Shown here piece by piece: positions 20,297-37,439 of a DNA stretch of 64,000 nt (positions within the stretch are counted from its first letter, which is position 1; each line of letters opens with the position of its first letter). The DNA lies in contig NZ_CP029797.1 of NCBI RefSeq assembly GCF_003268595.1, forward strand, positions 3,555,501-3,619,500, in the 5' to 3' direction. Both the position numbers and the translations under genes were made by a program. This DNA comes from Paraliobacillus zengyii. Lineage in GTDB: Bacteria; Bacillota; Bacilli; Bacillales; Amphibacillaceae. The notes below the pieces were generated by a model, which did no database searches, was not told the DNA's origin, and worked only from the letters and a program-made list of their open reading frames with translations.

Positions 20297-23200
20297 TTAA
20301 TTCGCTTGATTCTTTCTTCTTCGTAGTACAAGAAGACTACCAAAACCAATGATTAATAATGCTCCACCTAACACTAACCAATTGTACTGATTTGTTGCAG
20401 TTTCTGGTAACTTCTCACCATTAACTTCAGCTTCGTCAGACTCTTCGCTTGTCACTGGGTCTGTTTCTTCTACTGTATTATTTTCTTCGCTATCGTCACC
20501 TTCAGTCTCCTCTGTTACTGGAGTTGTTGGCTCAACTGGTTCTTTTGGTTGCTCTGGCTGCTCTGTCTCTTCTACCTGTAGTTCCTCCAACCCATCAATT
20601 CCAGCCTGTAATGCCGTTAATGCTTCAGTCAATGTTTCCTCTGAATCAATCGATTCAAGCGCTTGTTCCGCTTCTGTAATCGCTGCTTGTAACGATGCAA
20701 AAGAGGCTTCCGTATAACCGTCCGCATTTATTTCTTTTGCAGTATCGATTAATGCTTCTAGCTCCGTTGTATCGATTTCTGGTTCTGGTTCTGGCTCTAC
20801 CACTTCCAGTCCATCAATGGCAGCTTGTAATGCTGTTATAGCTGCAGTTAATGTTTCCTCTGAATCAATGGTTTCAAGTGCTTGTTCCGCTTCTGTGATT
20901 GCTAATTGCAAATTATCAAATGATGTTTCCGTATAATCTACACTAGCATATTCTTTTGCTGTCTCAATTAATGTTTCCAATTCTGTTACATCTACTTCTG
21001 AAGCAGGTGTTATTTCAAAGACACCATAAATACTAAAGTGTGTTACTTCTGCAACTACCTCACCTGTTTCTGAATCATAGGAGATTGGCGTGATCTCTTC
21101 TTCTTTCACATCATCTTCGTTTATATAGACAACTTTTACATTTTCCCAATCGGTTACTTTCGTTGGATCAACAGTAAAGGTTAATGATACTGGCGTCTCC
21201 AAACTAATATCCTCATCACCTGAAGTTAATGTAAAGTCATACAAGGTACTTAAAGCGTCCGCATGCGTAACGTTTGTCATACCTGATATCGTACCAAAAC
21301 TAAATGTAACATCTTCACCCGTTTTTAAAAGCTCGATCGGGAATGATGCTTTGACATTATTATAGACCATTTCAATTGAAGTTCCTTCTTCTAAATTTTC
21401 AAGAACTTCTTTTGTCAAAACTGTAACTTTTTCATTTAAATTCGTTTTATAAACATTATCGGTAAATTCTAAATCCCCAATATCACTTATTGTTACTGGT
21501 TCTATTTCTGCAGGTGTAAGACCCTCAACTGCTGTTTGTAATGCTGTTATAGCTGTAGCAACGGTATCTTCTGAATCAATCGATTCAAGCGTTTCTTTCG
21601 CTTGTTTAATTGCTTCTTGTAATGCTGAAAACGTATCTTCCGTATAACCATCAGCCTGTATTTCTTTTGCCTTTTCAATTAATACTTCTAACTCAGTTAC
21701 ATCAATTTCAGGTTCTGGCTCTTCTTCCACCTGTTCTACCAGTACATCAATTGCCCCTTGCAAGGCATTTATTGCTGCAACTAAAGACTCCTGTGAATCA
21801 ATCGATCCAAGTGCCTCTTCCGCTCCTGTTATTGCTACTTGTAAATCAGCAAATGACGCTTCTGTATAGTCTTCCTCAGATAACTCTTTTGCTGTTTCAA
21901 TTAATGTTTCTAATTCGATTGTATCAATTTCTGGTTCTGGCTCTTGTCCAGGTTCTTCATATTCCCCTATAACAAGATCATAATAAGCTTTAATCTCATT
22001 TTTAGATATAGCTGTTTCGCCGTATATACGCAGATCATCCATTAAACCTTTGTATGGTGCATCCCAATAGTTAACACCTAAGCCAAAGCTTGCATCTGAG
22101 GCGCTAAACACATCAGGGAAGTCCGTACCAGCAAATGCTTCCTCACCATTGATATATACAACAATCTCTCCATTATCAACAGTAAAAGCTACATGTGTCC
22201 ATGCGTTAGTTGGGATCGTTTCACCGATTGATGCATTATAACGTCCACCACTACTATCAGCCATTAGATTGGTGTTTTTTTCCTCACCATCAATTGGGCT
22301 AATCGGAACAAAACTAACCCATTCACTGTTTGTTTTTGTGCCAAAGAATGTTGTGGTATAGTCATTTATTTCATCTGGATTTAACCACATGGATACAGAA
22401 TACGTATCCGTATCAATTAAACCATTTGGTAACCTTATACCAGATTCGCCATTGAATAATGCAGCTTGACCATTTATACCACTATCAAAGGAAATGCTCC
22501 CACCCGTATTATCAATAAGATCACCTGTAATAGTTCCTGCTTCTAAATTCCCTGTTTCTTCTTCTAAATTATCATCAAACTTATAGTTAGCTGTTAACCC
22601 ATTTGGATTTTGATAAAGTTCGTTTACATCAGTTTCTAAAAGAGCCACTCCGTCATAAATACGAACCTCATCCATTAAACCTTTAAATGGTGTATCCCAG
22701 TAGTTAACACCAAGACCAAAGACTGCATCTATCGATGTAAATATATCTGGGAATTCATCACCCGTGAATTGTGGTTCACCATTAATATAAAATACAATAT
22801 TTCCTGCTTCAACCGTCAAAGCTACATGTGTCCACTCGTTAGCAGGAATATTTGTGCTCGGTACTGCATCATACCAATCAGCTCCATTATGCGCCCATAA
22901 CTCCGTATTTCCATCAGATGGCCCACTTGGCACAAGACTAATCCAGTTGTTCTCTGTCCTCGCACCAAAAAATGTAGTTGTATACTGTGTAATTTCTTCT
23001 GGTTTCATCCATAATGATACAGTATACGTATCACTCGAAACTAAACCATCCGCTAAGCGTAAGCCCGATTCACCATCAAACTTTGCTGCCTGACCAACCA
23101 CACCATCTTCAAATGTAATCGATCCACCATCATTATTAATTCTGTTACCCGTTACTGTGGCATCTTCTTGTTTGCCAGATTGATCTTTCAAATTATCACT

Positions 23201-25165
23201 AAAGTTGTAATAAGCAGATAAGCCACCTTCAGCCTCAGCTAAAACAGTAGTAGTAATCGACAATGTTTCAGTAACATCTCCTAATGTAATCGTCGCCTTA
23301 AGCTCCACAGGCGCGTCTTCCATACCAAATCTTGGTCGCACAACAGTCCCATCATTCGCTAGTACGTCAGGTGCTGAAGACTCCCATGAAATTTGTGTTC
23401 CTCTTGTTGCTACAGTTTGAAGTGATACGTCACTAATGACAGTAGTTGGAATCGCGTTACTTAATTCATCTTTTATCGCTGCTACCAACTCGGCATCCGA
23501 TGAACTTTCCACGTGACTTCCCCAAATAACGACTCCTTCACCTGACATCGCACTAAACGTCATAACCCAACTCTCGGAAGTAGGATCCCACTGCCGAATA
23601 AATACGCCATCATAGGTGTTATTATCAATCGATAATTCCACTCGATAATCGTCATACAATTCCCATGTACCTGTTACAGCTCCAGAGATTGTATAATCGG
23701 CATTTAATTTTATCCATGATGATTCGGTTACATCTCCAGTAATTTCTTTTCCATGGTTAATGTACTTATAGTCGCCAACAATAGCCTCAGTCGAAACCGT
23801 TTCGATTGTTTCACCTGCATAGCGATATGGTGTTGGTACCGGCCATTGATCCGTGTTCTTAAATGTTTGATGTACACGAACCTCATGTGTCTCCCCTTGT
23901 TCTGGGAAACGTGTATGCGTAACCAAAAATTCTTTTCCTGTATCGGAATCGGTATAGTAAGAGTTATGTCCTGGTGCGGCATAGCCTGTTCCAATTCCAG
24001 TGCCTGCTTCTCCAAGATCCCGTTTAAACAAGAAGTTACCCATCATTTTATTTCCTATTTCTTTATGGTCATCCATTGCAGGGAAATTCCCAACACCTTC
24101 GTCAAATGACTCTGGGAAAACGGCTTCGTTTCCTGCAGCATCTACATACGGACCTTCGATATTTTCTGATCTAAACTGGCGCATTTGATAGCCACCATCA
24201 GAAGCTAAGCCGCCATATGTGATATAAAGATAGTAATAGCCAGTCTCCTCATCATATACTGCATAAGTTCCCTCGCCAGATCTTCCATATCCACCAGCAA
24301 TCTTAGTACCGAAATATCTATCAATCATTCTTCCATCTTCTGTTTGCCCATCTTCTCCAGGATAAAGTGGTTGACCCGTTTCTTTATCTAGTTCTAAAAT
24401 GAAAGTTCCGCCAGACCAGGAACCATAAGTCATCCATAACGTTCCATTCTCATCATAGAGAATATTCGCATCAATGGCATTTGTATAAAGTGCATTATTG
24501 TAATTACCATTTTCTTCACTAGTAAACCAATCTGGATTTACATCTTCAATAACACCATCCTCTATTAATTCTGGAAGATTTGTATTTTCATAGTGTTTAT
24601 TTACATCACTACTATTATCATATGTTTCATAGTTCGTGAAACCAGAGTACATAATTGTATCAACGTATTGATACGGTCCTTCAATATCCTTTGAAACCGC
24701 GATCCCAATTGCAGATCGAATATACGTAGAAGAAACACTATAGTACATCATATAAGCTCCAGTTGTCCCATCTAGATTTACATAATCTTCATTCCAAAAA
24801 ATATCGGGCGCCCATACAGCAAATCCGCCACTACTATCCGCGTCATCTTCCCCTGCCCAAGCAAATGATTCCGCTAAGTTTTCGGATAAATCACCATAAA
24901 GTTGATTATCCTCTGGCGTACTATACTCAGTAGTGAATGTATCCCAATTAATTAAGTCGGTCGATTTAGCTGACGCGATATGTGAACCAAACACATAGTA
25001 AGTCTCACTGTCCTCAGCCTTAATTATTGATGGATCATGTACGGAGGCATTTCTCAATTCAGGCACTTCAAGTTCATCCCCTTCTTCAACACCTAAAACA
25101 GTGGATGGCATAAATAAAACAAGCAATAAAAAAACAGATATAAATAATTTAAAAAAATGTCGCAT
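20297..25165 (-). CDS. Cell-wall-anchored multidomain GH43 arabinan endo-1,5-alpha-L-arabinanase
   Basis: 1622 residues from ATG 25165 (GAGGAG SD). In order: signal peptide ending STVLG; GH43 five-blade domain (about 45-445) with HDPSII (base Asp), AIDANILYD, SGEGTYAVYD and the Ca-site PGHNSYY; a lipocalin-like GH43 C-terminal domain (about 458-555); an Ig-like module (556-641); two LamG-type modules (644-850, 855-1060); FIVAR repeats (about 1081, 1154, 1390, 1461) in two pairs split by a beta-rich insert (1222-1386); an acidic linker; and LPETA plus TM helix and RRRK tail. It cleaves plant arabinan at the cell surface. The sorting motif is LPxTA rather than LPxTG. A cre site lies upstream. 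Confidence 0.93.
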   Translation of the reverse strand: MRHFFKLFISVFLLLVLFMPSTVLGVEEGDELEVPELRNASVHDPSIIKAEDSETYYVFGSHIASAKSTDLINWDTFTTEYSTPEDNQLYGDLSENLAESFAWAGEDDADSSGGFAVWAPDIFWNEDYVNLDGTTGAYMMYYSVSSTYIRSAIGIAVSKDIEGPYQYVDTIMYSGFTNYETYDNSSDVNKHYENTNLPELIEDGVIEDVNPDWFTSEENGNYNNALYTNAIDANILYDENGTLWMTYGSWSGGTFILELDKETGQPLYPGEDGQTEDGRMIDRYFGTKIAGGYGRSGEGTYAVYDEETGYYYLYITYGGLASDGGYQMRQFRSENIEGPYVDAAGNEAVFPESFDEGVGNFPAMDDHKEIGNKMMGNFLFKRDLGEAGTGIGTGYAAPGHNSYYTDSDTGKEFLVTHTRFPEQGETHEVRVHQTFKNTDQWPVPTPYRYAGETIETVSTEAIVGDYKYINHGKEITGDVTESSWIKLNADYTISGAVTGTWELYDDYRVELSIDNNTYDGVFIRQWDPTSESWVMTFSAMSGEGVVIWGSHVESSSDAELVAAIKDELSNAIPTTVISDVSLQTVATRGTQISWESSAPDVLANDGTVVRPRFGMEDAPVELKATITLGDVTETLSITTTVLAEAEGGLSAYYNFSDNLKDQSGKQEDATVTGNRINNDGGSITFEDGVVGQAAKFDGESGLRLADGLVSSDTYTVSLWMKPEEITQYTTTFFGARTENNWISLVPSGPSDGNTELWAHNGADWYDAVPSTNIPANEWTHVALTVEAGNIVFYINGEPQFTGDEFPDIFTSIDAVFGLGVNYWDTPFKGLMDEVRIYDGVALLETDVNELYQNPNGLTANYKFDDNLEEETGNLEAGTITGDLIDNTGGSISFDSGINGQAALFNGESGIRLPNGLIDTDTYSVSMWLNPDEINDYTTTFFGTKTNSEWVSFVPISPIDGEEKNTNLMADSSGGRYNASIGETIPTNAWTHVAFTVDNGEIVVYINGEEAFAGTDFPDVFSASDASFGLGVNYWDAPYKGLMDDLRIYGETAISKNEIKAYYDLVIGEYEEPGQEPEPEIDTIELETLIETAKELSEEDYTEASFADLQVAITGAEEALGSIDSQESLVAAINALQGAIDVLVEQVEEEPEPEIDVTELEVLIEKAKEIQADGYTEDTFSALQEAIKQAKETLESIDSEDTVATAITALQTAVEGLTPAEIEPVTISDIGDLEFTDNVYKTNLNEKVTVLTKEVLENLEEGTSIEMVYNNVKASFPIELLKTGEDVTFSFGTISGMTNVTHADALSTLYDFTLTSGDEDISLETPVSLTFTVDPTKVTDWENVKVVYINEDDVKEEEITPISYDSETGEVVAEVTHFSIYGVFEITPASEVDVTELETLIETAKEYASVDYTETSFDNLQLAITEAEQALETIDSEETLTAAITALQAAIDGLEVVEPEPEPEIDTTELEALIDTAKEINADGYTEASFASLQAAITEAEQALESIDSEETLTEALTALQAGIDGLEELQVEETEQPEQPKEPVEPTTPVTEETEGDDSEENNTVEETDPVTSEESDEAEVNGEKLPETATNQYNWLVLGGALLIIGFGSLLVLRRRKNQAN

Positions 25166-25670
25166 TACTTCTTTCTCCTCTCTTAACACAATTTTTGAAA
25201 GCGTAACCATATTGCTCCATAAATCTATATTGAGTAGTTAGACACTAACTTCAATAAAGACTTTCTTGTTGTTAAGAACGTTAGATTCTGTTCCTTTTTT
25301 CTGAGTATGTAAAATAGAGCAGGGAAGAGGGCTCTTAGATGTGCAATAGAAATACGAGTCGTTGAGTGAGCTTTACTAAACAGCAATTGTAGATGGTTGT
25401 ATTAAATTTCCGTCATATAAAACCTCCAATAAGTAGATGTACCCATAATTTTTAAAACGCTTACATCAAACTTGTCAATAAGTTAAAAGCTTTGAACATT
25501 ACTTAATGTAATACACCTGACAGTAATTGTCAACCGGATTTTTCTCTTGTTTTTTACAAACACTCAAGTTAATAAGAATTATTAGAAAGTTGTACGGTTT
25601 ACTTTACATATAATAGAAAATAATTAAAAGAAACAGTAGGGGATAGCTATTCCCTACTGTTAAAGCCCAG
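25166..25670. other. Intergenic region upstream of the arabinanase gene, no gene
   Basis: About 500 bp of AT-rich DNA holding the arabinanase leader and the cre site. No ORF with an SD and no recognised riboswitch. Confidence 0.4.
25452..25465. promoter_or_regulatory. Candidate CcpA cre site for the arabinanase gene
   Basis: On the minus strand TGTAAGCGTTTTAA matches the cre consensus (TGTAARCGYTWWCA) at 13 of 14 positions. It lies about 290 bp upstream of the start, consistent with glucose repression if the leader is long. Confidence 0.5.
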
Positions 25671-26752: not shown

Positions 26753-27109
26753 TTATTTAAAAAACGCTTTCTCTACATTATATTTAGCTTTAAGTTTATT
26801 AACAATGTACGTTTCATAAATTTCTCTGTCGACAGGTTCTTCAATTTTACACACTTCAATCTTGGTAACTTCATGTCTGTGTTCTTTTATTACAGATACA
26901 GAGTCCTCAAAATGTTTCTTAACTCTAGGTCTTAGCTTTCTTGCCTTCCCGACGAATAACAGTTCATTATCGTCATTGTAAAACAAAAAAATACCACCCT
27001 TATCTCTAGGTATAAGGTGAAAGTCCGTAAAACCATAGATGTTACTTAACTCTGGATGGTCTTTCTTTTTAATTGTAATATCCGGTGTCGGAATTGTTAT
27101 TTCTATCAC
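26753..27109 (-). CDS. GIY-YIG nuclease-fold protein
   Basis: 118 residues starting with GTG 27109 (GAGG SD). The GIY-YIG core is recognisable as GGIFLFYNDDNELLFVGKARKLRPRVKKHF: GIY becomes IFLFY, YIG becomes FVG, followed by the usual KA.L..R basic helix. A C-terminal Tyr/Glu-containing helix (PVDREIYETYIVNKLKAKYN) matches the family. Small stand-alone members of this fold are widespread, with DNA-repair or unknown roles. Confidence 0.82.
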   Translation of the reverse strand: MIEITIPTPDITIKKKDHPELSNIYGFTDFHLIPRDKGGIFLFYNDDNELLFVGKARKLRPRVKKHFEDSVSVIKEHRHEVTKIEVCKIEEPVDREIYETYIVNKLKAKYNVEKAFFK

Positions 27110-27266: not shown

Positions 27267-28796
27267 TTATGAAAATAGAGACAGTGCTTTATCAAGCATT
27301 AGCTCATGTCCTAGCGCTGAATTATGCGTCCACGGATAAGAATTTGATATATATACATTATCGCTTTTTGTTGCCATTAATTTATGCCGATATTGTTCAG
27401 AAAACTCATCAATTAAGTAAATAATCCGATCCGCATCAAAATCCTCAAGGTCGCTCCAACGCTTCACTTCAAGATAAGAGATTCCTTTTAATGATTCTGG
27501 CTGCTTTAAGCCGAGACTCTGGTAAACAAATTCTCCAATTCTTCTTCCCTTTTTTGAACCGTAAATACCTAAAGAATTCTGATTATCCTTTACTAATAGG
27601 AATGATTCCCCTTTTGTCTCTTGATAGAGGTGTTTTCGAACTTGCTCTTCTCTTGTATAATAATTACTAAGCCAAGCAAAAGCGGCTTCCTTCATTCCAA
27701 GTATTTCAGCTGTTTTTATTAAATTTGAATCCCAGTTTTCCCCTCTCCAGTCAATGAAATAAACTGGAGCAATTTCAGATAAAATTTCCATACAGGCTTC
27801 TTCTCCAGAAGGTGCAATTATTAAATCAGGTTTCGCTTCCCTAAGTTGGTCTGCTAAGCTATCAATCACTTTCTCCCAACGCCATGGCCGTGGTGTATTC
27901 ATTATAGCAACGCATGGTTTGATCCCCAATGCAAGTAGCGTTTCTTCAATCTCCCAAGATAATGCCGCAATCTTCTTTCGTGAACAATGCATAAATTGGA
28001 TAGGTGAGAGACCAACTTTTTTCTTGAAAATTCTACTAAAATAATATTCGTCACTATAACCTACGGAATGAGCTACTTCTGATACTTTGAACGATGAACC
28101 AGATAGGAGCTCTCTTGATTTGCGAATACGATGTTCAATTATATACTGACCAGGACTCAATCCCATTCTTTTTTTAAAACGTTGATAAAACACAGAAACA
28201 CTTGACCCTGACTTTTCAGCTAGTTCCTCTATCATAAACTCTTCTTGTGTGTTTGCCTTCATTAATTTTGCTATTTGCAAGATGCCTGCATCTTCATCAA
28301 ACACGCTTTTATCATTTATTCCATCAGCTTCTATTAAGTTTTCTAATAAGTTTCTAATTAAAACTTGTATTTCAATTTGTTGATTATTTCTAGTATCATC
28401 CACTATTTCCCAAAGACTTTCCATGACAGACCTAGCATTTGTTGCAGACTTGTGAGTAAGAAAACTATTGAATGGAATGATATAAGCTACCGCCTGCCAA
28501 TCACCTTTAACTCGACTAATTTTACTACAAGTAAATGTAAACACCTTTACTTTCAACGGACTATCACCAATATTTACAATGCGTGTAGTTTTTGCGGGAT
28601 TACAATAAAGTAAATCACCATTTAAAACCATCTTAGACTTAAGATCATCATAAACCTCTGCTTCTCCTGTTTGGACATATATGAGCGTATTAGTATTTGT
28701 CATTAATTCATGAATCTGTCTTGTGTTTAATTTCAACGTATAATGACCTTCAATAGTAAACCAAAGATGCTTTATCTCATTCTTAAAATTGTCCAT
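27267..28796 (-). CDS. AraC-family regulator fused to a ferric-siderophore-binding-like domain (Btr type)
   Basis: 509 residues in three parts: an N-terminal cupin-like domain (1-150), an AraC DNA-binding domain with two HTHs (about 175-275; LAEKSGSSVSVFYQRFKKRMG and VGYSDEYYFSRIFKKKVGLSP), and a C-terminal periplasmic-binding type-2 fold (about 285-509; PDLIIAPSGEEA). This is the layout of Bacillus Btr/YbbB, where the ferric siderophore is sensed in the cytosol and activates its uptake genes. A 19-bp Fur box lies upstream. It follows the uptake operon on the same strand, so it is the likely activator binding the 22-bp repeats at 34583-34617. Confidence 0.9.
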   Translation of the reverse strand: MDNFKNEIKHLWFTIEGHYTLKLNTRQIHELMTNTNTLIYVQTGEAEVYDDLKSKMVLNGDLLYCNPAKTTRIVNIGDSPLKVKVFTFTCSKISRVKGDWQAVAYIIPFNSFLTHKSATNARSVMESLWEIVDDTRNNQQIEIQVLIRNLLENLIEADGINDKSVFDEDAGILQIAKLMKANTQEEFMIEELAEKSGSSVSVFYQRFKKRMGLSPGQYIIEHRIRKSRELLSGSSFKVSEVAHSVGYSDEYYFSRIFKKKVGLSPIQFMHCSRKKIAALSWEIEETLLALGIKPCVAIMNTPRPWRWEKVIDSLADQLREAKPDLIIAPSGEEACMEILSEIAPVYFIDWRGENWDSNLIKTAEILGMKEAAFAWLSNYYTREEQVRKHLYQETKGESFLLVKDNQNSLGIYGSKKGRRIGEFVYQSLGLKQPESLKGISYLEVKRWSDLEDFDADRIIYLIDEFSEQYRHKLMATKSDNVYISNSYPWTHNSALGHELMLDKALSLFS

Positions 28797-28946: not shown

Positions 28947-28965
28947 GATAATGATTATCATTATC
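28947..28965. promoter_or_regulatory. Fur box upstream of the AraC-type regulator
   Basis: GATAATGATTATCATTATC matches the classic 19-bp Fur consensus at 18 of 19 positions, about 150 bp upstream of the regulator gene. Confidence 0.92.
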
Positions 28966-29005: not shown

Positions 29006-29040
29006 AATAGTGGTGCAGGTTATAATCCCGCACCACTATT
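29006..29040 (-). terminator. Hairpin after the siderophore operon
   Basis: Perfect 11-bp stem AATAGTGGTGC (29006-29016) / GCACCACTATT (29030-29040) downstream of the HPr-like gene. The U tract is short, so termination may be partial. Confidence 0.65.
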
Positions 29041-29101: not shown

Positions 29102-29362
29102 TTAGTCTTTATTCGACTCAATAATTTCCCCAATAGCTTTAACTGCCTCATTTTCATCAATACCATTAGCTATTACAATAATCTCCTCTCCTCCTTTAGC
29201 TCCAAGCTTTAAGAGACTCATTATACTGTTTGTATGAGCAACCTCAGTATCCCTGCAAAGTGTAATCTGACAGGTGTATAATAATGCTTTTTCAATAATT
29301 AAACTAGCTGGTCTGAAGTGTAAACCCAGAGGATTTACTAGAATGTAAGATTGTTTTTTCAT
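29102..29362 (-). CDS. HPr-like phosphocarrier protein
   Basis: 86 residues, an HPr fold of normal length. NPLGLHFRPASLI holds the His-15 phosphosite (usual GIHARPA; Ala replaced by Phe). TNSIMSLLKLGAKGGEEI corresponds to the Ser-46 regulatory region (usual KSIMGVMSLG), so both phosphosites are kept. It is the last gene of the siderophore operon, 31 nt after the nitroreductase-EIIA gene. Inference: it passes phosphate to the neighbouring EIIA domain. It is not the housekeeping ptsH, as no ptsI follows. SD AGGAG is 13 nt from the ATG. Confidence 0.88.
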   Translation of the reverse strand: MKKQSYILVNPLGLHFRPASLIIEKALLYTCQITLCRDTEVAHTNSIMSLLKLGAKGGEEIIVIANGIDENEAVKAIGEIIESNKD

Positions 29363-29393
29363 AGTAATTAACTACTCCTACTTAAATCTATAA

Positions 29394-30437
29394 TTAAAAA
29401 AGATCACTCTCTTCATCGACCTTTTCAAAAAGATTAATAAATTCTTTTAAAGAAGACGCCGCAAAAACTTTTTCTGAATTCTTGATATCTTCAAACATCG
29501 TTGAGACTTTTAATAAAACGTCTAAATGGTATTGTCTTTCGGCTGCAATACCAACCATTAAATGAACCTTCTCACCTTCATAATCAATACCATCTCTGAA
29601 ATGCATGATAATAATTCCGGATTTTACAACAGCTTCTTTGGCTGACTTTGACCCGTGAGGTGTCGCAATTCCGTTGCCAAGATATGTAGACTTCATGCTC
29701 TCTTTTTCATGCATACTGTCAACATACGCTTCCCCAACATACCCTAGCTCTACTAATTTCTCTCCAGCAAATTGTATCGCAGCTGTTTTAGACATATCAG
29801 GAAGGTCAAAAAAAACATTACTTTGATTGATGTCTAACTTAAATTTATCTTTTTTATCTTTATCCATAAACCTATCAATTACTGTTAGCTTTTTAGTTGC
29901 AGGTATTCTTTTAGAATATCTTGGGATTGCATCTGGATATCCTACTTGCAAAAGTCCAACAATTTTTTCACCTGGTACTACATCTATCCCCTCTCTAAAT
30001 TTAGGCGAAGAAATATATTCATCCGTTTTCCAAACAACACCAAGACCACGCTCCCATGCTGTAAGCTGGAAGTTTTGAATTAATGCACACACAGCAGCAT
30101 AATCTTCTTCCCAAACCTTCGTACGAGGATCTTCATTCATAACTATAACGATATGACAAGGAATAGATAAAAGATATTCCAATTTAGCTCGTTTGAGTGG
30201 CCTTCCCATTTTTCCTTTTTCACTTTCTGACTTAATCAACTGAACTACTTTTTTTCGTCCATCTCCAATGAATGCTATAAAACGCCACGGTTCTCTTAAT
30301 CTATGAGTTGGAGCCCAAACTGCTGTATCAAGAATTTCCGTTATCAATTCTACCGGTGTTTTTTTATCCTTAAACTTCTTTATTGTTCTTCGATCACGGA
30401 TTAGTTGAGCAATTGGATAAGTTTCTTTATTTATCAT
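29394..30437 (-). CDS. Nitroreductase fused to a PTS EIIA (mannitol/fructose-type) domain
   Basis: 347 residues. Residues 1-185 are an FMN-dependent nitroreductase domain (IRDRRTIKKFKDK at the FMN phosphate site; AVWAPTHRLREPWRF; LTAWERGLGVVWKT; IVGLLQVGYPD). Residues about 205-347 form a PtsN/Mtl-type EIIA with the active-site His in GNGIATPHGSKSA and LMVGIAAERQYHLDVLLKVS. GGGAGGA SD before ATG. It sits in a Fur-controlled ferric-siderophore operon, next to an HPr homologue. Nitroreductase-like enzymes can reduce ferric siderophores (e.g. S. aureus NtrA). I infer a siderophore reductase tuned by phosphorylation of the EIIA part. Confidence 0.9.
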   Translation of the reverse strand: MINKETYPIAQLIRDRRTIKKFKDKKTPVELITEILDTAVWAPTHRLREPWRFIAFIGDGRKKVVQLIKSESEKGKMGRPLKRAKLEYLLSIPCHIVIVMNEDPRTKVWEEDYAAVCALIQNFQLTAWERGLGVVWKTDEYISSPKFREGIDVVPGEKIVGLLQVGYPDAIPRYSKRIPATKKLTVIDRFMDKDKKDKFKLDINQSNVFFDLPDMSKTAAIQFAGEKLVELGYVGEAYVDSMHEKESMKSTYLGNGIATPHGSKSAKEAVVKSGIIIMHFRDGIDYEGEKVHLMVGIAAERQYHLDVLLKVSTMFEDIKNSEKVFAASSLKEFINLFEKVDEESDLF

Positions 30438-30497: not shown

Positions 30498-31358
30498 TCA
30501 ATATATTCCCTCATAAGATAGATGATACGCAGCTTTTCTATCTAGTGAATTTGATTCGGATGTGTTTCCCTTTTCTTCCTTGACATACGGTAAACATATT
30601 GGAAGTCCGCTCCTTGGATGAGTTATAATATCCGAATAAATGCCAAAGACATCAAAAAGCAACTCGGGTTCCATAACTTCTTGAGGGGTTCCGCTACGCA
30701 TCACCTTACCTTCTTTGATAGCAACCATATGATCAGCAAAACGACTGGCATGATTTAAATCATGAACTACCATTACAATAGTTCGTCCTTCTCTCTCGTT
30801 TAAATGTTTTAATAGATAAAGCACCTCATATTGATGAGCAATATCAAGGTAAGTTGTTGGCTCATCAAGCAATAAAACTTCTGTATCTTGAGCTAGGGCC
30901 ATAGCTATCCAGACCCTTTGTCGTTGTCCGCCTGATAGTCTATCTATGGACCTGTCTGCAAACTCTCTCATATTAGTCACATCGATAGCCCATTGAACCA
31001 TTTTTTTGTCATGTTTACTTAATACACCAAATCCTCCTTGATGAGGTGAACGTCCATAGCTGACTAATTCTGCAACAGTTAATCCATCAGGAGCAACTGG
31101 ATTTTGTGGAAGTACAGCTAACTGTTTTGCTATTTCCTTTGATCTTTGCTCCTTAATGGTTTTACCATTTATATAAACAGCGCCACCAACAGGATTTAAA
31201 ATACGAGAAATAGCTTTTAAAATTGTTGATTTACCCGAACCATTTGCTCCAACTAATGCAGTAATACGATGTTTAGGAATCTTTAAATTCAAATCCTCTA
31301 CAATAATCGCTTCTTCATAGCCTATATTCAACTTCTCGGTGACGATAATGTCCTTCAT
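30498..31358 (-). CDS. Ferric-siderophore ABC transporter ATPase (FecE/FhuC type)
   Basis: 286 residues from ATG 31358, chosen because GGAGG lies 8 nt upstream; the longer frame has no SD. Walker A GANGSGKST, Q-loop LPQNPVAPDG, signature LSGGQRQRVWIAMALAQ, Walker B VLLLDEPTTYLD and the switch His in VMVVHDLNHA are all intact. The region after 255 (HPRSGLPICLPY) is typical of iron-chelate ATPases. It energises the two FecCD-type permeases encoded just upstream. Confidence 0.95.
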   Translation of the reverse strand: MKDIIVTEKLNIGYEEAIIVEDLNLKIPKHRITALVGANGSGKSTILKAISRILNPVGGAVYINGKTIKEQRSKEIAKQLAVLPQNPVAPDGLTVAELVSYGRSPHQGGFGVLSKHDKKMVQWAIDVTNMREFADRSIDRLSGGQRQRVWIAMALAQDTEVLLLDEPTTYLDIAHQYEVLYLLKHLNEREGRTIVMVVHDLNHASRFADHMVAIKEGKVMRSGTPQEVMEPELLFDVFGIYSDIITHPRSGLPICLPYVKEEKGNTSESNSLDRKAAYHLSYEGIY

Positions 31359-31424
31359 TGACAATTCCTCCATCAAAAGCATGATATCCCACTAGTACAG
31401 TGGGAGTTCAATAAGCAAACTATA

Positions 31425-32381
31425 TTACTTTGTAGCAATCTCTTCAGCTAATTCTAGTATTTCAAATTGGGAAGAAAATACTGGCTCAATAAACAATTTA
31501 TCCATCACATAAACATTATCGTTTTTCACTGGTTCTAAGCTTTGCCATACGGAATTATCATGCCACATATTAATTAAAGAATTTGGGTTTTCTGGATCTG
31601 AATTCCGAGCCCATTCTGCGATAATAATATGATCAGCGTTCGCTGCACTTACCCCTTCAATTGTTAATTCTCCACCATACTCTATATCAGCAACAGGTGA
31701 AAAGCCTAGTTCCTCATACAAAAGACTAAAATCTTCTGTACTAATAGCTGTAAAGTTTTTTCCGTTTGCACGAAGTACAAGAACGGTTTCATCGAATTCT
31801 GAACCAATTACCTTTTTAGTTTCTGCCACTTTCGTTTCATAGTCTGTAATAATTTCTTCTGCCTTTGCTTCTTCACCGATTAACTCTGCAATTTTTCGAA
31901 TACTACTAGGATAGTCTGTCCCCCACTCTATAACTGCAGTTGGTGCAAGTGGTTCAATTTGTTCTAATTCATTTATTTTGTCTGTTGTTAAAATAGCTAA
32001 ATCTGATTCCATATCTAGAAGTGTTTCCAAATTTAATCTATTACCTAAATCAATGATATCTTGACCTTCTAAGTAAGGATCCATAATAGTTGAATTGCTG
32101 ACCTCCTCTATTGCTTCACTGGCTATTGGTGGATGTCCTAACATAACTAAAACATCTATAATATGTTCGTTAATAGCTACTATTTTTTCAGGCTGTTGTT
32201 CAAGCGTGATCTCTCCATTAGTGTGTGTTACTGTACGTGGATAAATAGCTTCCTCCGCCTCTTCTGATTCCTGATTCGATGTTTCCTCTGAGCTTACTTC
32301 TTCTGTTTGCGTGTTGCAGCCCACTATTAGAAACATTAATGCCGTTAAACTAACGATTGAAAACAATAGATTTTTTTTCAT
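31425..32381 (-). CDS. Ferric-siderophore-binding lipoprotein
   Basis: 318 residues. Lipoprotein signal with lipobox LIVGC, then an acidic linker (EEVSSEETSNQESEEAEE) and a type III periplasmic-binding fold (EKIVAINEHIIDVLVMLGHPP ... VLRANGKNFTAISTEDFSLLYEELGF). It captures the ferric chelate outside the membrane and delivers it to the FecCD permeases. The specific siderophore cannot be told; the Btr-type regulator hints at a catecholate or citrate type, which is inference. Confidence 0.93.
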   Translation of the reverse strand: MKKNLLFSIVSLTALMFLIVGCNTQTEEVSSEETSNQESEEAEEAIYPRTVTHTNGEITLEQQPEKIVAINEHIIDVLVMLGHPPIASEAIEEVSNSTIMDPYLEGQDIIDLGNRLNLETLLDMESDLAILTTDKINELEQIEPLAPTAVIEWGTDYPSSIRKIAELIGEEAKAEEIITDYETKVAETKKVIGSEFDETVLVLRANGKNFTAISTEDFSLLYEELGFSPVADIEYGGELTIEGVSAANADHIIIAEWARNSDPENPNSLINMWHDNSVWQSLEPVKNDNVYVMDKLFIEPVFSSQFEILELAEEIATK

Positions 32382-32399: not shown

Positions 32400-33431
32400 T
32401 TATTTTGATTTAATTAATAAGTATAAAAAATATGGTGCTCCTATTAAAGTAATGATGATGCCAGCAGGTAGTTCAGAATATTTCATAATACTTCTGGCAA
32501 TTGTATCTCCTGTTAATACCAAAAGCGATCCGATTAACGCTGTTACTGGAAGCATAAATTGATGTTTAGGTCCTACTAATTTTCGCGCAATATGCGGTCC
32601 CATTAATCCAATAAAACCAATACCGCCTCCAATAGCTACAGCAGATGCTGCTAAACCAACAGCCACAGCTAGTAAATATAACTTTTCTCTCTCTAATGAA
32701 AGTCCAAGACTCGTACCTAGGGCATCATTTAAATTTAATAAATTCAAAACATGTGATTTATAATAAACATACGGTAATAAAAGTAATGTCCATGGAAGTA
32801 AAGCTAAAACAAAGCTCCAATTTCCACCATAAAGATTTCCTAAATTCCACTGAAGCACAAAGTCATATTCATTCGGATTAAGTCTTAAAGTTAAAATAAT
32901 CGAGACAGCTGATAGTCCTGCACTAACTGCAATACCAACTAAAAGTAGCCTAGTCGGCGTCATTCCTTCTCCTTTTTTAAAGGCGAGTAAATAAATCAAC
33001 AATGCTGTAAGTGCAGCTCCTATTAAAGCAAATAACGGTAAAATATAGGGGTTAACTCCTGTTGAAGTTGGTTTCATCACAACGATAAGCAATACCACTA
33101 AACCCGCACCCGAATTTATCCCTATAATTCCAGGGTCTGCTAAACCATTTCTTGATATCCCTTGTAAAATAGCCCCCGAAATCGCAAGACTCGCTCCAAC
33201 CATAATTGCAATTATCATTCTCGGTAATCGAAGTTGATATAGAATAATATGGTGCTTATCTGATGAATTTCCTAATAGAGTATCGAATACTTCTTGCGGT
33301 GACAATCTGACTGTTCCAGTATTCATACTAATAACAAAAACGATCGCTAAAAGAATAGCAAAGATAAGTATTAACTTTAAACTTTTAACCATTCGTTTAT
33401 GTTGAATTTCCGTTATTGTAACTAGCTTCAT
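32400..33431 (-). CDS. FecCD-family siderophore permease (second)
   Basis: 343 residues with about ten TM helices. FecCD signatures include RLPRMIIAIMVGASLAISGA, the Gly-rich LADPGIIGINSGAG and the coupling segment GFIGLMGPHIARKLVG. The start overlaps the stop of the preceding permease by 4 bp (ATGA), so translation is coupled. It forms a heterodimer with the 33428-34489 product. Confidence 0.95.
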   Translation of the reverse strand: MKLVTITEIQHKRMVKSLKLILIFAILLAIVFVISMNTGTVRLSPQEVFDTLLGNSSDKHHIILYQLRLPRMIIAIMVGASLAISGAILQGISRNGLADPGIIGINSGAGLVVLLIVVMKPTSTGVNPYILPLFALIGAALTALLIYLLAFKKGEGMTPTRLLLVGIAVSAGLSAVSIILTLRLNPNEYDFVLQWNLGNLYGGNWSFVLALLPWTLLLLPYVYYKSHVLNLLNLNDALGTSLGLSLEREKLYLLAVAVGLAASAVAIGGGIGFIGLMGPHIARKLVGPKHQFMLPVTALIGSLLVLTGDTIARSIMKYSELPAGIIITLIGAPYFLYLLIKSK

Positions 33432-34489
33432 ATTAATTCTCTCTTTTCTTTTCTAGCTAGATATAAGAAAAATGGAACACCAAGCACAGCCATAATTGAA
33501 CCTAATGGAGTTTCATAAGGCATGTTTATCAGCTTGGCACCAATATCGGCAATAACCACGATTACTGCACCAACAACAGCTGAACAAGGTATAATTAATC
33601 GGTAATCGACACCAACTAAAAAACGCACAATATGTGGAACGATTAATCCAATAAACCCCACTCCACCAACAGTTGACACAGAAGCACCAACAAGAAGGAG
33701 TACAACAACTGCCGCTAATGCCTTAATCACTTTCGTTCCTTGTCCTAATCCAATTGCCACTTCTTCACCAAGACTTAATATTGTTAGTTTAGGAGATATT
33801 GCAATAGCCCCAAGTAAGCCAATGGTAATCCAGGGTATGATCACCTTTACTTGAAACCATTCAACAGCCGAAATCCCTCCCGCTGACCAAAAAGCCAATT
33901 CATATGATACACCCGAAACCAATGAAATAATTTGTGTGATTCCTTTTACAAGTGAACCAATAATTGCTCCAGCTAAGACTAATCGTAGTGGTGTTAGTCC
34001 ACCCTTAGCAAAATAGGCAATTGCATAAATAAGACCAACTCCAAGTCCTGCCCCAATAAACGAGAACAAGATTAAATACTTAAACTCCATATTAGGATAA
34101 AATGCAAATACCACTACTAAAACAAATCTTGCACCTGCGTTAATTCCTAGTAAGCCTGTATCTGCAAGAGGATTCCGTGTCATTCCCTGCATAATTGCAC
34201 CTGATACTGCGAAACCCGCCCCTATTAGTGCTCCAGTTAAAGCACGAGGAAAACGAAGATTGTATACTATTTGGTGTTGTTCTAGGCTTGGATTAAAGTG
34301 AAATACTGCATCCAATACAACAGAAAAAGAGATCCCTGCAGCACCAGTACTTATTGATGTAACCATTCCTATTAAAATAAGAATAATGCCTACTGCAATA
34401 ATACTTATTGCAAATATAGGACGTGATTTTATTACAATGTCTTCTTCTGACTTCACCTTTTCTTTCACAGGTTTAACTAAAGTAGTCAT
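33428..34489 (-). CDS. FecCD-family siderophore permease (first gene of operon)
   Basis: 353 residues from ATG 34489; AGGAGG is upstream, though at a long 13-nt spacing. TTG 34516 would add nine residues without an SD. Typical FecCD stretches are NLRFPRALTGALIGAGFAVSGA, NPLADTGLLGINAGA and GFIGLIVPHIVRFLVG. It heads the Fur-controlled operon permease-permease-lipoprotein-ATPase-nitroreductase/EIIA-HPr. Confidence 0.95.
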   Translation of the reverse strand: MTTLVKPVKEKVKSEEDIVIKSRPIFAISIIAVGIILILIGMVTSISTGAAGISFSVVLDAVFHFNPSLEQHQIVYNLRFPRALTGALIGAGFAVSGAIMQGMTRNPLADTGLLGINAGARFVLVVVFAFYPNMEFKYLILFSFIGAGLGVGLIYAIAYFAKGGLTPLRLVLAGAIIGSLVKGITQIISLVSGVSYELAFWSAGGISAVEWFQVKVIIPWITIGLLGAIAISPKLTILSLGEEVAIGLGQGTKVIKALAAVVVLLLVGASVSTVGGVGFIGLIVPHIVRFLVGVDYRLIIPCSAVVGAVIVVIADIGAKLINMPYETPLGSIMAVLGVPFFLYLARKEKRELI

Positions 34490-34530
34490 AACAACTCTTT
34501 TTCCTCCTAATAACAACTAATGCACAAATT

Positions 34531-34549
34531 AATAATGATAATCATTCTC
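34531..34549. promoter_or_regulatory. Fur box over the siderophore operon start site
   Basis: AATAATGATAATCATTCTC matches the 19-bp Fur consensus at 17 of 19 positions. It lies just downstream of the -10, so bound Fur would cover the transcription start. Confidence 0.92.
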
Positions 34550-35031: not shown

Positions 35032-36837
35032 ATGAGCTTAAATCAAGTGTTGTTTTTACTATTGTTGGCCATCACTGGTTGTTTGCTTTATATTGCATAT
35101 CTCGCATGGAGAAAAAGAGAATCACCTGTTGCTGTCAGCTTATTTTTAGGTATGTGCTCAGGGGCTTGTTATTCATTTGGTTATGCTTTTGAAATAATTA
35201 GCTCAGACTTAAACCAAATACACTTTTGGCTTAAAGTGGAATATATCGGTATCTCTTTTGGAACACTTATTTGGTTTATCATGGTGTTGCAATTTACGAG
35301 TCATCATATGCTTCTGCAAAAGTGGATACTAGTAAAGCTCTCCATTATACCTATTCTTACATTTGTAAGTCATTATACGAATGAGTGGCATCATTTATTT
35401 TATAAAGATACTTGGCTTTATGAGTGGAATAGCTTTTCTCTAGTTTCCATAAAAATCGGCCCATTTTATATGCTTCACATCATATATTCTTTCGTACTTT
35501 TTATTGTCGGAATGTTATTTTTATTGCATATGTACCGAAAAGCTGCAAGCCATATGAAGAATCAAGTTTTAGTAATGATGATAGGCTCTTGTGGACCTTA
35601 TCTTATTTCCATTATATATTTAAGCGGTTTTATGGAAACACCTATCGACCTTTCTCCATTTGGACTTCTTTTTTCAGGTATTCTTATTATATGGGGAATC
35701 TATCATTTAAACATGATGAAATTGTTGCCACATGCATTAAATCAAGTTTTTAATTCAATGAAGGACGCAGTAATAATACTTGACCTAGATAATAACATCA
35801 CAAGCTTTAACTTCTCCGCTAGCCAAGTTTTTCAAGAGCTTGACAAGACAGTAATTGGACAATCTGCCACTACTATACTCTCCTACTATCCAGAACTACT
35901 TAAAACTATTACAGCTGGCGATTCCTTGCAAAGAAAAATAAAGTTAGCGAACGAAACAGGTTTTCACTATTATCATGTTTACATTTCACATGTTCGTAAT
36001 AAGAGACAGAAAATCGTTGGGAAAACACTCTGGTTAAATGACATAACAGCATTAGTACTTAATGAGGAAAAACTACTTGCTAGTTCAAAACAGTTAGAAG
36101 AACTGAATGCGTTTAAGGATAAGATGTTCACAATTGTTGCTCATGACATTCGTGATCCACTTTCATTACTGATGAATCTGATGGAGATCCTTAAAGATGA
36201 ATTACAAGAGTATCAAGACAAGCACGCTGAAATTGCCCGTGAAATGGAACAACAAATTCAAAATGCCTTTTCACTGGTAGAAAGCCTACTTGACTGGTTC
36301 CGAAGTCAAAAAGGTGGCATGTCATTTAATCCTGTATCATGGAATTTATCGCAAATTATTCGGAAGAATACAGATTTATTACACATTCAGAGTGATAGAA
36401 AACAAATTACGGTCATCTCAGAAATAGCTAATGATATGGTTGTTTATGCGGATAAAGAAATATTAGATCTACTTATCAGAAATATTCTTTCGAATGCTAT
36501 TAAATTCTCAGAATTTGAAGGGATTATCCTATTACGTGCAGATCAGGTAAAAGACAAAGTAATAATATCTATAAAAGACAGTGGTCAAGGGGTACCTCCA
36601 GATCAAGCGCTTAGATTACTACAAGATCAAGAAGGATATCTTGAATCTTTGAACGGAACCGCGGGAGAAAAAGGTATTGGTATTGGACTTACTTTATGTA
36701 GAGAATTTGCTCAAATAAATGGTGGGGAACTGTGGTTTGAAAGTGTCCCTAATCAAGGTAGTACTTTTTATTTCTCTACTCCTATTGGAATGAGCCCAGA
36801 CGCTGTAAAACAAGAAGAGGGAATGAGTACAAGATGA
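35032..36837 (+). CDS. Sensor histidine kinase with N-terminal 7TM domain and PAS
   Basis: 601 residues. The N-terminal 7TM sensor (about 1-225; HFWLKVEYIGISFGTLIWFIM; PIDLSPFGLLFSGILII) is of the HisKA_7TM type. It is followed by a PAS-like region (240-350), HisKA with phospho-His in TIVAHDIRDPLSLLMN, and HATPase with RNILSNAIKFS, IKDSGQGVP and GIGIGLTLCREFA. The stop overlaps the response-regulator start by 4 bp (ATGA). The SD AGGAGG can pair in a small hairpin (GAGGA/TCCTC). Signal unknown. Confidence 0.93.
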   Translation: MSLNQVLFLLLLAITGCLLYIAYLAWRKRESPVAVSLFLGMCSGACYSFGYAFEIISSDLNQIHFWLKVEYIGISFGTLIWFIMVLQFTSHHMLLQKWILVKLSIIPILTFVSHYTNEWHHLFYKDTWLYEWNSFSLVSIKIGPFYMLHIIYSFVLFIVGMLFLLHMYRKAASHMKNQVLVMMIGSCGPYLISIIYLSGFMETPIDLSPFGLLFSGILIIWGIYHLNMMKLLPHALNQVFNSMKDAVIILDLDNNITSFNFSASQVFQELDKTVIGQSATTILSYYPELLKTITAGDSLQRKIKLANETGFHYYHVYISHVRNKRQKIVGKTLWLNDITALVLNEEKLLASSKQLEELNAFKDKMFTIVAHDIRDPLSLLMNLMEILKDELQEYQDKHAEIAREMEQQIQNAFSLVESLLDWFRSQKGGMSFNPVSWNLSQIIRKNTDLLHIQSDRKQITVISEIANDMVVYADKEILDLLIRNILSNAIKFSEFEGIILLRADQVKDKVIISIKDSGQGVPPDQALRLLQDQEGYLESLNGTAGEKGIGIGLTLCREFAQINGGELWFESVPNQGSTFYFSTPIGMSPDAVKQEEGMSTR

Positions 36838-37439
36838 AAGTAGTAATTATTGACGACGAATTTGCTATGCACTTGATTATGAAACGCATGCTTGCGAAGA
36901 TTGATAACGTTGAAATCGTTGGAAGTTTTCAAGACACGACAATAGCCTTTTCCTATCTAAAGAACTGTAAAGTTGACTTAGTATTTATTGATATTAATAT
37001 GCATAAAGAAAATGGTCTTGATTTTGCCAAGCGTTTAAGAGAGAGCGGTTGGCGAACGAGGTTGGTCTTTGTGACATCGCACAAAGAATATGCCTTATCT
37101 GCTTTTGATGTGCATGCCTATGATTACATCGTCAAACCTCTTTCTCAAGAAAGACTTACCACTACAATTGAACGCTTTCGCTCTGATGAAAATACCACCG
37201 AAGTAACAGAATTGGTTACAAAAGGGCTAACACCTAAGCTTATTGAGTCGTTAACCAAAAGGGAATTGGAAATTATCAATCTTATGAGTAACGGACTAAC
37301 AAACAAAGAAATTGCTCTGACATATAAGTTGGCGGAAGGTACAGTCAAAAATCATATTGTTAATATTTTCGGGAAATTACAAGTGAAAAATAGAGTCCAA
37401 GCTATCACTGTTGCAAAGTCATTTAATCTAATTAAATAA
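36834..37439 (+). CDS. Response regulator, NarL/LuxR family
   Basis: 201 residues. Receiver domain with acidic pair IIDDEF, phospho-Asp in LVFIDINM (about 53), Thr in VFVTSHKEYAL and Lys in YIVKPLS. The C-terminal LuxR HTH has LTKRELEIINLMSNGLTNKEIALTY and GTVKNHIVNIFGKL. It is translationally coupled to the preceding kinase. The receiver (SAFDVHAYDYIVKP) resembles LytR-type receivers, an unusual mix with a LuxR output. Targets unknown; no dedicated neighbour. Confidence 0.93.
   Translation: MKVVIIDDEFAMHLIMKRMLAKIDNVEIVGSFQDTTIAFSYLKNCKVDLVFIDINMHKENGLDFAKRLRESGWRTRLVFVTSHKEYALSAFDVHAYDYIVKPLSQERLTTTIERFRSDENTTEVTELVTKGLTPKLIESLTKRELEIINLMSNGLTNKEIALTYKLAEGTVKNHIVNIFGKLQVKNRVQAITVAKSFNLIK

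Follow-up and report, generated by a model that had tools for sequence, protein, structure and literature searches.

Iron import is usually described as being controlled by Fur at the level of transcription, and PTS-Ntr, composed of EI-Ntr, NPr and EIIA-Ntr, is a sugarless regulatory version of the PTS. Regulation through a IIA domain fused to another protein is exemplified by LacS of Streptococcus thermophilus, a transporter whose C-terminal IIA domain is phosphorylated by HPr(His~P) and, according to the excerpt available of its source (PMC10703360), is regulatory and not essential for transport. On the iron side, NtrA of S. aureus is a Fur-regulated nitroreductase needed for the use of staphyloferrin A iron, as given in the accessible part of a review (PMC9598555). 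Neither the parts nor regulation by a fused IIA domain is new in itself. What we have not seen in the PMC literature is a siderophore-linked nitroreductase that bears a mannitol-class EIIA, has its own HPr and once its own EI, and lies under a Fur-type box. Our search of that literature, judged mostly by titles and the beginnings of abstracts and with most subscription papers outside its scope, found no description of a nitroreductase-EIIA fusion, and the portion seen of one paper (PMC5620643) treats EIIA and nitroreductase separately, with no fusion.

The arrangement described here lies in a 64,000-nucleotide stretch of the Paraliobacillus zengyii genome (contig NZ_CP029797.1, positions 3,555,501 to 3,619,500), hereafter called the window. 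Its six-gene operon is encoded on the minus strand with intergenic gaps of at most 60 bp and is listed here in order of transcription, followed by the associated sites and regulator gene.

33428..34516, minus strand: FecCD permease 1, first gene of the operon (TTG start as listed; PF01032, 282 bits)
32400..33431, minus strand: FecCD permease 2 (PF01032, 316 bits; 4-bp overlap with permease 1)
31425..32381, minus strand: siderophore-binding-type SBP (PF01497, 53.5 bits)
30498..31382, minus strand: importer ATPase (PF00005; best NCBIfam models FecE- and FepC-type, both below cut-off)
29394..30437, minus strand: nitroreductase-EIIA fusion, 347 aa (Pfam Nitroreductase and PTS_EIIA_2)
29102..29362, minus strand: HPr homologue, 86 aa, 31 bp past the fusion (PF00381, 76.7 bits)
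34531..34549, unstranded: Fur-box-like palindrome directly upstream of FecCD permease 1 (2/19 mismatches)
29006..29040, unstranded: inverted repeat of two perfectly matching 11-bp arms around a 13-base loop, located between the HPr gene and the AraC-type regulator gene
28947..28965, unstranded: Fur-box-like palindrome upstream of the AraC-type regulator gene (0/19 mismatches, minus strand)
27267..28796, minus strand: AraC-type regulator with a C-terminal siderophore-binding-protein-like domain (Btr-like; PF12833, PF00165, PF01497)

The six operon genes make up a predicted ferric-siderophore importer operon under Fur-type control. Four matches to Fur-type palindromes (two sites, each on both strands) were found, against a mean of 0.06 in shuffled sequence, and the solved relatives of the SBP include proteins named FhuD, SirA, YfiY and YclQ. 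The AraC-type regulator scores 145.8 bits with NF049932, below that model's cut-off of 900. The inverted repeat beyond the HPr gene possibly marks the transcript end; a terminator scan, for which the loop of this element is too long, called no terminators.

Other genes in this part of the window include a sensor kinase with a 7TM N terminus (HisKA_7TM; 35032-37439, plus strand), which is divergent from the siderophore operon and adjoins a gene that reads as response-regulator-like. The gene of a 118-aa GIY-YIG protein (26753-27109, minus strand) is flanked by a methyltransferase-like gene and by that of the AraC-type regulator. Farther along, a 1637-aa protein (20297-25210, minus strand) carries, according to Pfam, GH43 and GH43_C domains, a concanavalin-like domain (Laminin_G_3), FIVAR domains and a motif for wall anchoring of the Gram-positive type.

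The fusion protein is divided into a nitroreductase segment (residues 13-187), a variable linker (188-203) and an EIIA segment (204-340), with Pfam matches to Nitroreductase (13-167) and PTS_EIIA_2 (204-339) that are both well over their cut-offs. The first segment matches PF00881 above the gathering score and has the fold of that family. Arginines 16 and 17 (R16/R17), which we take to be the residues that bind the FMN phosphate, are nearly invariant among 45 rows, and the domain is predicted to be a flavin-dependent NAD(P)H oxidoreductase. Fold and profile alike place the second domain in the mannitol class of EIIA, with IIA-Mtl as both its best PDB match and its best fold match. The predicted structure has a pTM of 0.64, and the model does not fix the arrangement of the domains.

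The initial annotation had described a siderophore importer operon that closes with a nitroreductase-EIIA protein followed by an HPr homologue, a description confirmed by the open reading frames and the Pfam matches. The phospho-histidine that it claimed within GIATPHG is H261, which is present in all eight fusion clusters (see below). Likewise, the His-15- and Ser-46-like sites that it reported for the HPr homologue are borne out by the PF00381 profile and by the motifs GLHFRPA (His-15) and SIMSLL (Ser-46). Its interpretation, in which the PTS phosphorylation state gates iron release, finds partial support.

Searched against about 5.8 billion proteins, the fusion gave 173 relatives. Among the 120 listed, eight clusters carry both domains, that of the window included, and the remaining 112 have no EIIA domain. 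Clusters P0004-P0008 are metagenomic, P0006 and P0008 miss part of the N terminus, and the comparison of gene context covers the window, Paenibacillus pinistramenti (locus L013) and Paenibacillus sp. FSL H8-0548 (locus L133). The operon, complete with fusion and HPr, is the same in all three of these genomes with readable context. In both Paenibacillus loci the genes lie on one strand in the order FecCD permease 1, FecCD permease 2, SBP, ATPase, AraC-type regulator, fusion and HPr, the AraC-type gene being inside the operon and without the SBP-like domain. Their fusions are 58-60% identical to that of the window, and the relatives of its FecCD permease 1 score 489.7 bits in P. pinistramenti and 504.3 bits in FSL H8-0548. 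Fur-type boxes are found just upstream of the first permease gene with 1/19 mismatches in P. pinistramenti and 2/19 in FSL H8-0548, and are thus present at three of three fusion operons. Recurrence with siderophore genes had been named beforehand as a point on which the reading could fail, and it held in both of the other readable genomes, linked HPr included. The presence of the block in two Paenibacillus genomes, with fusions at this level of identity, led us to reject the possibility that the fusion is a chance neighbour or an artefact.

The fusion architecture is rare. It is known from three genomes in all, across five overlapping sets of 159, 299, 394, 392 and 398 genomes, and these counts are lower bounds, many of the genome searches having scored part of the first-look candidates. 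Only the window's genome carries the fusion among the 159 of its family and in a class sample of 299, where the other listed matches stop at or before query residue 199. A phylum sample queried with P0007 again gave the window's own genome (1/398). The family including P. pinistramenti has two fusions in 394 genomes, its third match being a plain nitroreductase, and the order holding that family has one in 392, in one of those same two genomes. One other genome of the same genus was examined and has no fusion, and a single-sequence scan of genome contigs gave no match. Since the fusion is missing from the rest of the window's family, transfer between lineages is likely. Plasmid or viral spread was rejected, as none of 11 matching plasmid records reaches 80% query coverage and a search of viral contigs yielded no relative.

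Plain nitroreductases provide a wider view of the iron context. The best 80 of 163 related nitroreductase loci comprise 79 plain ones and one fused (P. pinistramenti), the latter being the only one of the 80 with EIIA and HPr nearby. A FecCD gene is located within 3 kb on the same strand at 31 of the 80 (31 of the 79 plain loci; that of P. pinistramenti is just past 3 kb), a same-strand SBP gene no more than 4.5 kb away at 34, and an AraC-type gene within 4.5 kb at 29. At ten loci (Brevibacillus, Paenibacillus and one Sporosarcina) a plain nitroreductase gene stands directly before close relatives (468-480 bits) of the window's FecCD permease 1, so the fusion appears to replace the plain enzyme in one type of siderophore operon. 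FecCD genes of at least 60 bits occur anywhere in the stretch at 40 of the 80 loci and are absent from the other 40, some of whose stretches are short, and none was found beside four plain relatives examined (L014, L016, L017 and L018). The enzyme family is therefore not exclusively iron-related.

This distribution bears on the alternative that the enzyme is a flavin reductase or a stress enzyme merely travelling with iron-uptake genes, in which case the relay would gate another redox reaction. The 40 loci without FecCD fit that view, nitroreductase-family names do not define substrates, and the nearest solved relative of the domain, 2i7h, is named only nitroreductase-like. However, the same-strand FecCD and SBP neighbours, the Fur-type boxes at the three fusion operons and the precedent of NtrA, to the extent that it is set out in the available part of PMC9598555, argue against it, and we consider this alternative unlikely. 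Iron release is in our judgement quite probably the reaction of the enzyme, for which the boxes and the operon context would also supply the Fur control and siderophore linkage that mark an NtrA-type protein.

Two of the plain nitroreductases without FecCD neighbours, from Peribacillus asahii (L016) and Cytobacillus eiseniae (L018), are close to the fusions. A similar short gene (MR.EGHRG.HKHHEGRH) precedes both (L016:8599-8958 and L018:8653-9000), and the L016 copy has no Pfam match. A second nitroreductase relative of 35% identity was located at G000:C1:3365616-3366245, in a match that spans three stop codons and perhaps runs past the end of the gene.

The EIIA domain retains its predicted phospho-acceptor, H261, in all eight fusion clusters and H304 in seven, the window's fusion having both and P0005 having glutamine at the latter position. 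We take these residues to be equivalent to His-65 (the phospho-acceptor) and His-111 (the second histidine) of IIA-Mtl. The equivalent of Arg-49 is lysine in six fusions, glutamine in one and methionine in one, whereas it is arginine in seven of seven MtlF-type rows; the equivalent of Thr-67 is likewise altered in all eight, which read PHGS where the seven MtlF-type rows read PHGT. The replacement of Arg-49 and the change of H304 to glutamine in P0005 suggest that the acceptor chemistry may be altered. Phosphotransfer to H261 is, in our estimate, very probable. Between the window and P0002 (FSL H8-0548), identity is 66.4% in the EIIA, 62.3% in the enzyme domain and 12.5% in the linker; for the more distant P0007 it is 41.6% in the EIIA and 54.9% in the enzyme domain. 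A PtsN-type EIIA was rejected, the PtsN model giving 26.5 bits against a cut-off of 138.7, and the mannitol IICBA model scores 109.2 bits, below its whole-protein cut-off of 589.

A tree of 38 EIIA rows, 31 of them different, excludes L010, L160 and L164 as copies of fusions and L173 for a score under the cut. In it a single branch (support 88/89, short of the starred level; found in 90% of bootstrap trees) sets the eight fused EIIAs apart, and they adjoin the MtlF-type (mannitol) EIIAs. This position and the match to IIA-Mtl are consistent with a second alternative, in which the fused EIIA hands its phosphate on, either donating to or competing with the mannitol PTS (the EIIB domain of MtlA, and MtlR), so that iron starvation would reset mannitol use, or phosphorylating another partner. 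Moreover, the window's genome has a separate mannitol-type EIIA of its own at about 240020-240442, 36% identical to the fused one. On the other hand, neither EIIB nor EIIC, and hence no sugar permease, is present among the operon genes of the window, P. pinistramenti and FSL H8-0548; the Arg-49 and Thr-67 equivalents are changed throughout; and such a role needs no fusion to an enzyme. A donor role is accordingly improbable. Onward transfer to a sugar in particular is unlikely because the operon has no EIIB or EIIC and the Arg-49 position is changed. Genes for lactose/cellobiose-type IIB and IIA are found at L013 2131-2777, upstream of the P. pinistramenti siderophore operon.

The linked HPrs resemble ordinary HPr in their phosphorylation sites and form a group of their own. 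All three have the His-15 and Ser-46 motifs, and they make up one clade (99/97) in a tree of 32 rows from which L194 and L195 were excluded as copies of linked HPrs and L199 as too short. The active histidine is followed by phenylalanine or tyrosine in all three, whereas alanine follows the histidine or glutamine in every one of the 22 unlinked rows (of 30) that fit the motif; the other eight are outside it, one of them reading GFHVRPT. A serine three residues past Ser-46 is common to the linked HPrs, and two or more of the unlinked rows have it as well. Closest to them among the unlinked HPrs are one in genome G311 and one in the mannitol operon of FSL H8-0548 (genome G785), which complete a five-row clade (98/96). 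A protein search with the HPr gave one candidate, the query itself. A Crh-like HPr lacking the histidine was also considered and rejected, the Crh-type glutamine being in another gene of the window's genome (L003).

Enzyme I is encoded inside one of the three operons. In FSL H8-0548, a complete 572-aa reading frame directly after the HPr gene (10278-11996 of L133, on G785:C1) has all three Pfam domains of EI and the source name phosphoenolpyruvate--protein phosphotransferase. It contains the motifs that we take to be the active-His, PEP-site and Cys sites, and this operon is thus predicted to encode a whole PEP-EI-HPr-EIIA chain. The protein is one of three EI matches in its genome and is divergent: with 7,996 candidates scored, its next best relatives are 43-46% identical among the matches listed (best 120 of 7,992). 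The His motif missed rows L138 and L140, and a long EI match that resembled a new fusion (P0123) was rejected because it holds the same stretch twice. No EI is present downstream in the P. pinistramenti locus, where a transposase-type gene (HTH_21, rve) is found instead. The window's genome has four HPr-family genes, an HPr kinase and a single EI match, which adjoins the general HPr, so there the operon HPr would depend on the housekeeping EI. That the operon and its linked HPr recur in both of the other genomes, once with EI, makes it likely that the EIIA domain is served by a dedicated phosphorelay.

In a tree of 58 nitroreductase rows (plain rows P0009-P0059 only; P0008 was excluded for too little domain), the fusions are scattered and at least four changes, gains or losses, are forced, indicating that EIIA was gained or lost repeatedly or else was swapped. 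Besides EI and an HPr that reads GFHVRPT, the mannitol operon of FSL H8-0548 (L204:2802-9961, G785:C1:438801-445960) encodes EIICB, mannitol dehydrogenase, a mannitol-type EIIA and a PRD regulator that carries an EIIA-like domain. The place of the fused EIIAs beside MtlF and that of the linked HPrs nearest the HPr of this operon both point to a mannitol-type PTS as the source. Derivation of the siderophore-operon EI from the same mannitol operon was not supported, since it forms a long branch elsewhere in an EI tree built by a quick method from 26 of 119 other listed EIs and five from genomes. A third alternative, which the scattered fusions, the Arg-49 change and the two operons without EI might suggest, takes EIIA and HPr to be vestigial or purely structural and to transfer no phosphate; it is very improbable in view of H261 in 8/8 fusions, the HPr His and Ser each in 3/3, the intact EI motifs and an EIIA about as conserved as the enzyme.

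We therefore favor, as a reading with a reasonable likelihood of being correct, a siderophore-linked reductase with a LacS-like regulatory EIIA, served by its own HPr and encoded in a Fur-controlled operon. The evidence counted for it includes H261 in all eight fusions, an EIIA whose conservation roughly equals that of the enzyme domain when the window is compared with P0002, the clade of linked HPrs and the three Fur-type boxes; counted against it are the Arg-49 change, the scattered fusions, the 40 of 80 loci without FecCD, the occurrence of EI in one operon of three and the pTM. According to this reading, the Fur-controlled operon would import a ferric siderophore and make a flavin-dependent NAD(P)H oxidoreductase whose nitroreductase domain most likely helps to free siderophore iron inside the cell. 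PEP would charge EI, supplied by the housekeeping system in the window's genome and by the operon in FSL H8-0548; EI would charge the linked HPr at His-15, and HPr would charge H261 of the fusion. The PEP/pyruvate ratio would determine the phosphorylation state, with HPr kinase at the Ser-46 site as a possible second input, and this state would then alter the activity or the partners of the reductase, much as LacS is modulated by HPr(His~P) acting on its fused IIA. That the EIIA regulates the attached enzyme is fairly probable, and we lean slightly toward the dephosphorylated form, expected at high glycolytic flux, as the active one.

In its fullest form, the proposal is a sugarless PTS relay for iron, in which a Fur-controlled PEP-EI-HPr-EIIA chain has a siderophore-iron reductase as its output and glycolytic state would act directly, at the post-translational level, on the release of iron inside the cell; we judge the case for this to be evenly balanced. 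The arrangement suggests that the carbon-energy state of the cell directly controls iron release. If so, a relay fixed to the reductase would offer a rapid, post-translational means of controlling what follows import. It would couple that step to PEP, and through PEP to carbon and reducing power, and iron release would join carbon and nitrogen among the processes under PTS regulation.

Comparison with described systems sets out what is shared and what is distinct. The parallel drawn with NtrA is a functional one (a nitroreductase, Fur control and siderophore utilization), and the part of PMC9598555 available mentions no EIIA or HPr for NtrA. PTS-Ntr is likewise a PTS chain with a regulatory EIIA at its end, but here the EIIA is of the mannitol class and not the PtsN class, is fused to an enzyme and is associated with a Fur-type box. 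Unlike IIA-mannitol of E. coli and the MtlF of Gram-positive bacteria, the domain is joined to a nitroreductase in an operon without EIIB or EIIC, with Lys, Gln or Met at the Arg-49 position and PHGS in place of PHGT. The linked HPrs share PF00381 and the His-15 and Ser-46 sites with the HPr/Crh proteins of Bacillota and differ in their own clade and in the Phe/Tyr after the active histidine. The mannitol operon of FSL H8-0548 similarly encodes EIIA, EI and HPr together, although it has mannitol permease and dehydrogenase genes and its EI groups apart from that of the siderophore operon. Like LacS, the fusion is a non-PTS protein with a IIA domain at its C terminus. The domain of LacS, however, is IIA-Glc-like and attached to a sugar transporter, whereas the one described here is of the EIIA_2 (mannitol/fructose) class, is joined to a flavoenzyme that is predicted to be cytoplasmic and is encoded in an iron operon, and is accompanied by a linked HPr and once also by EI.
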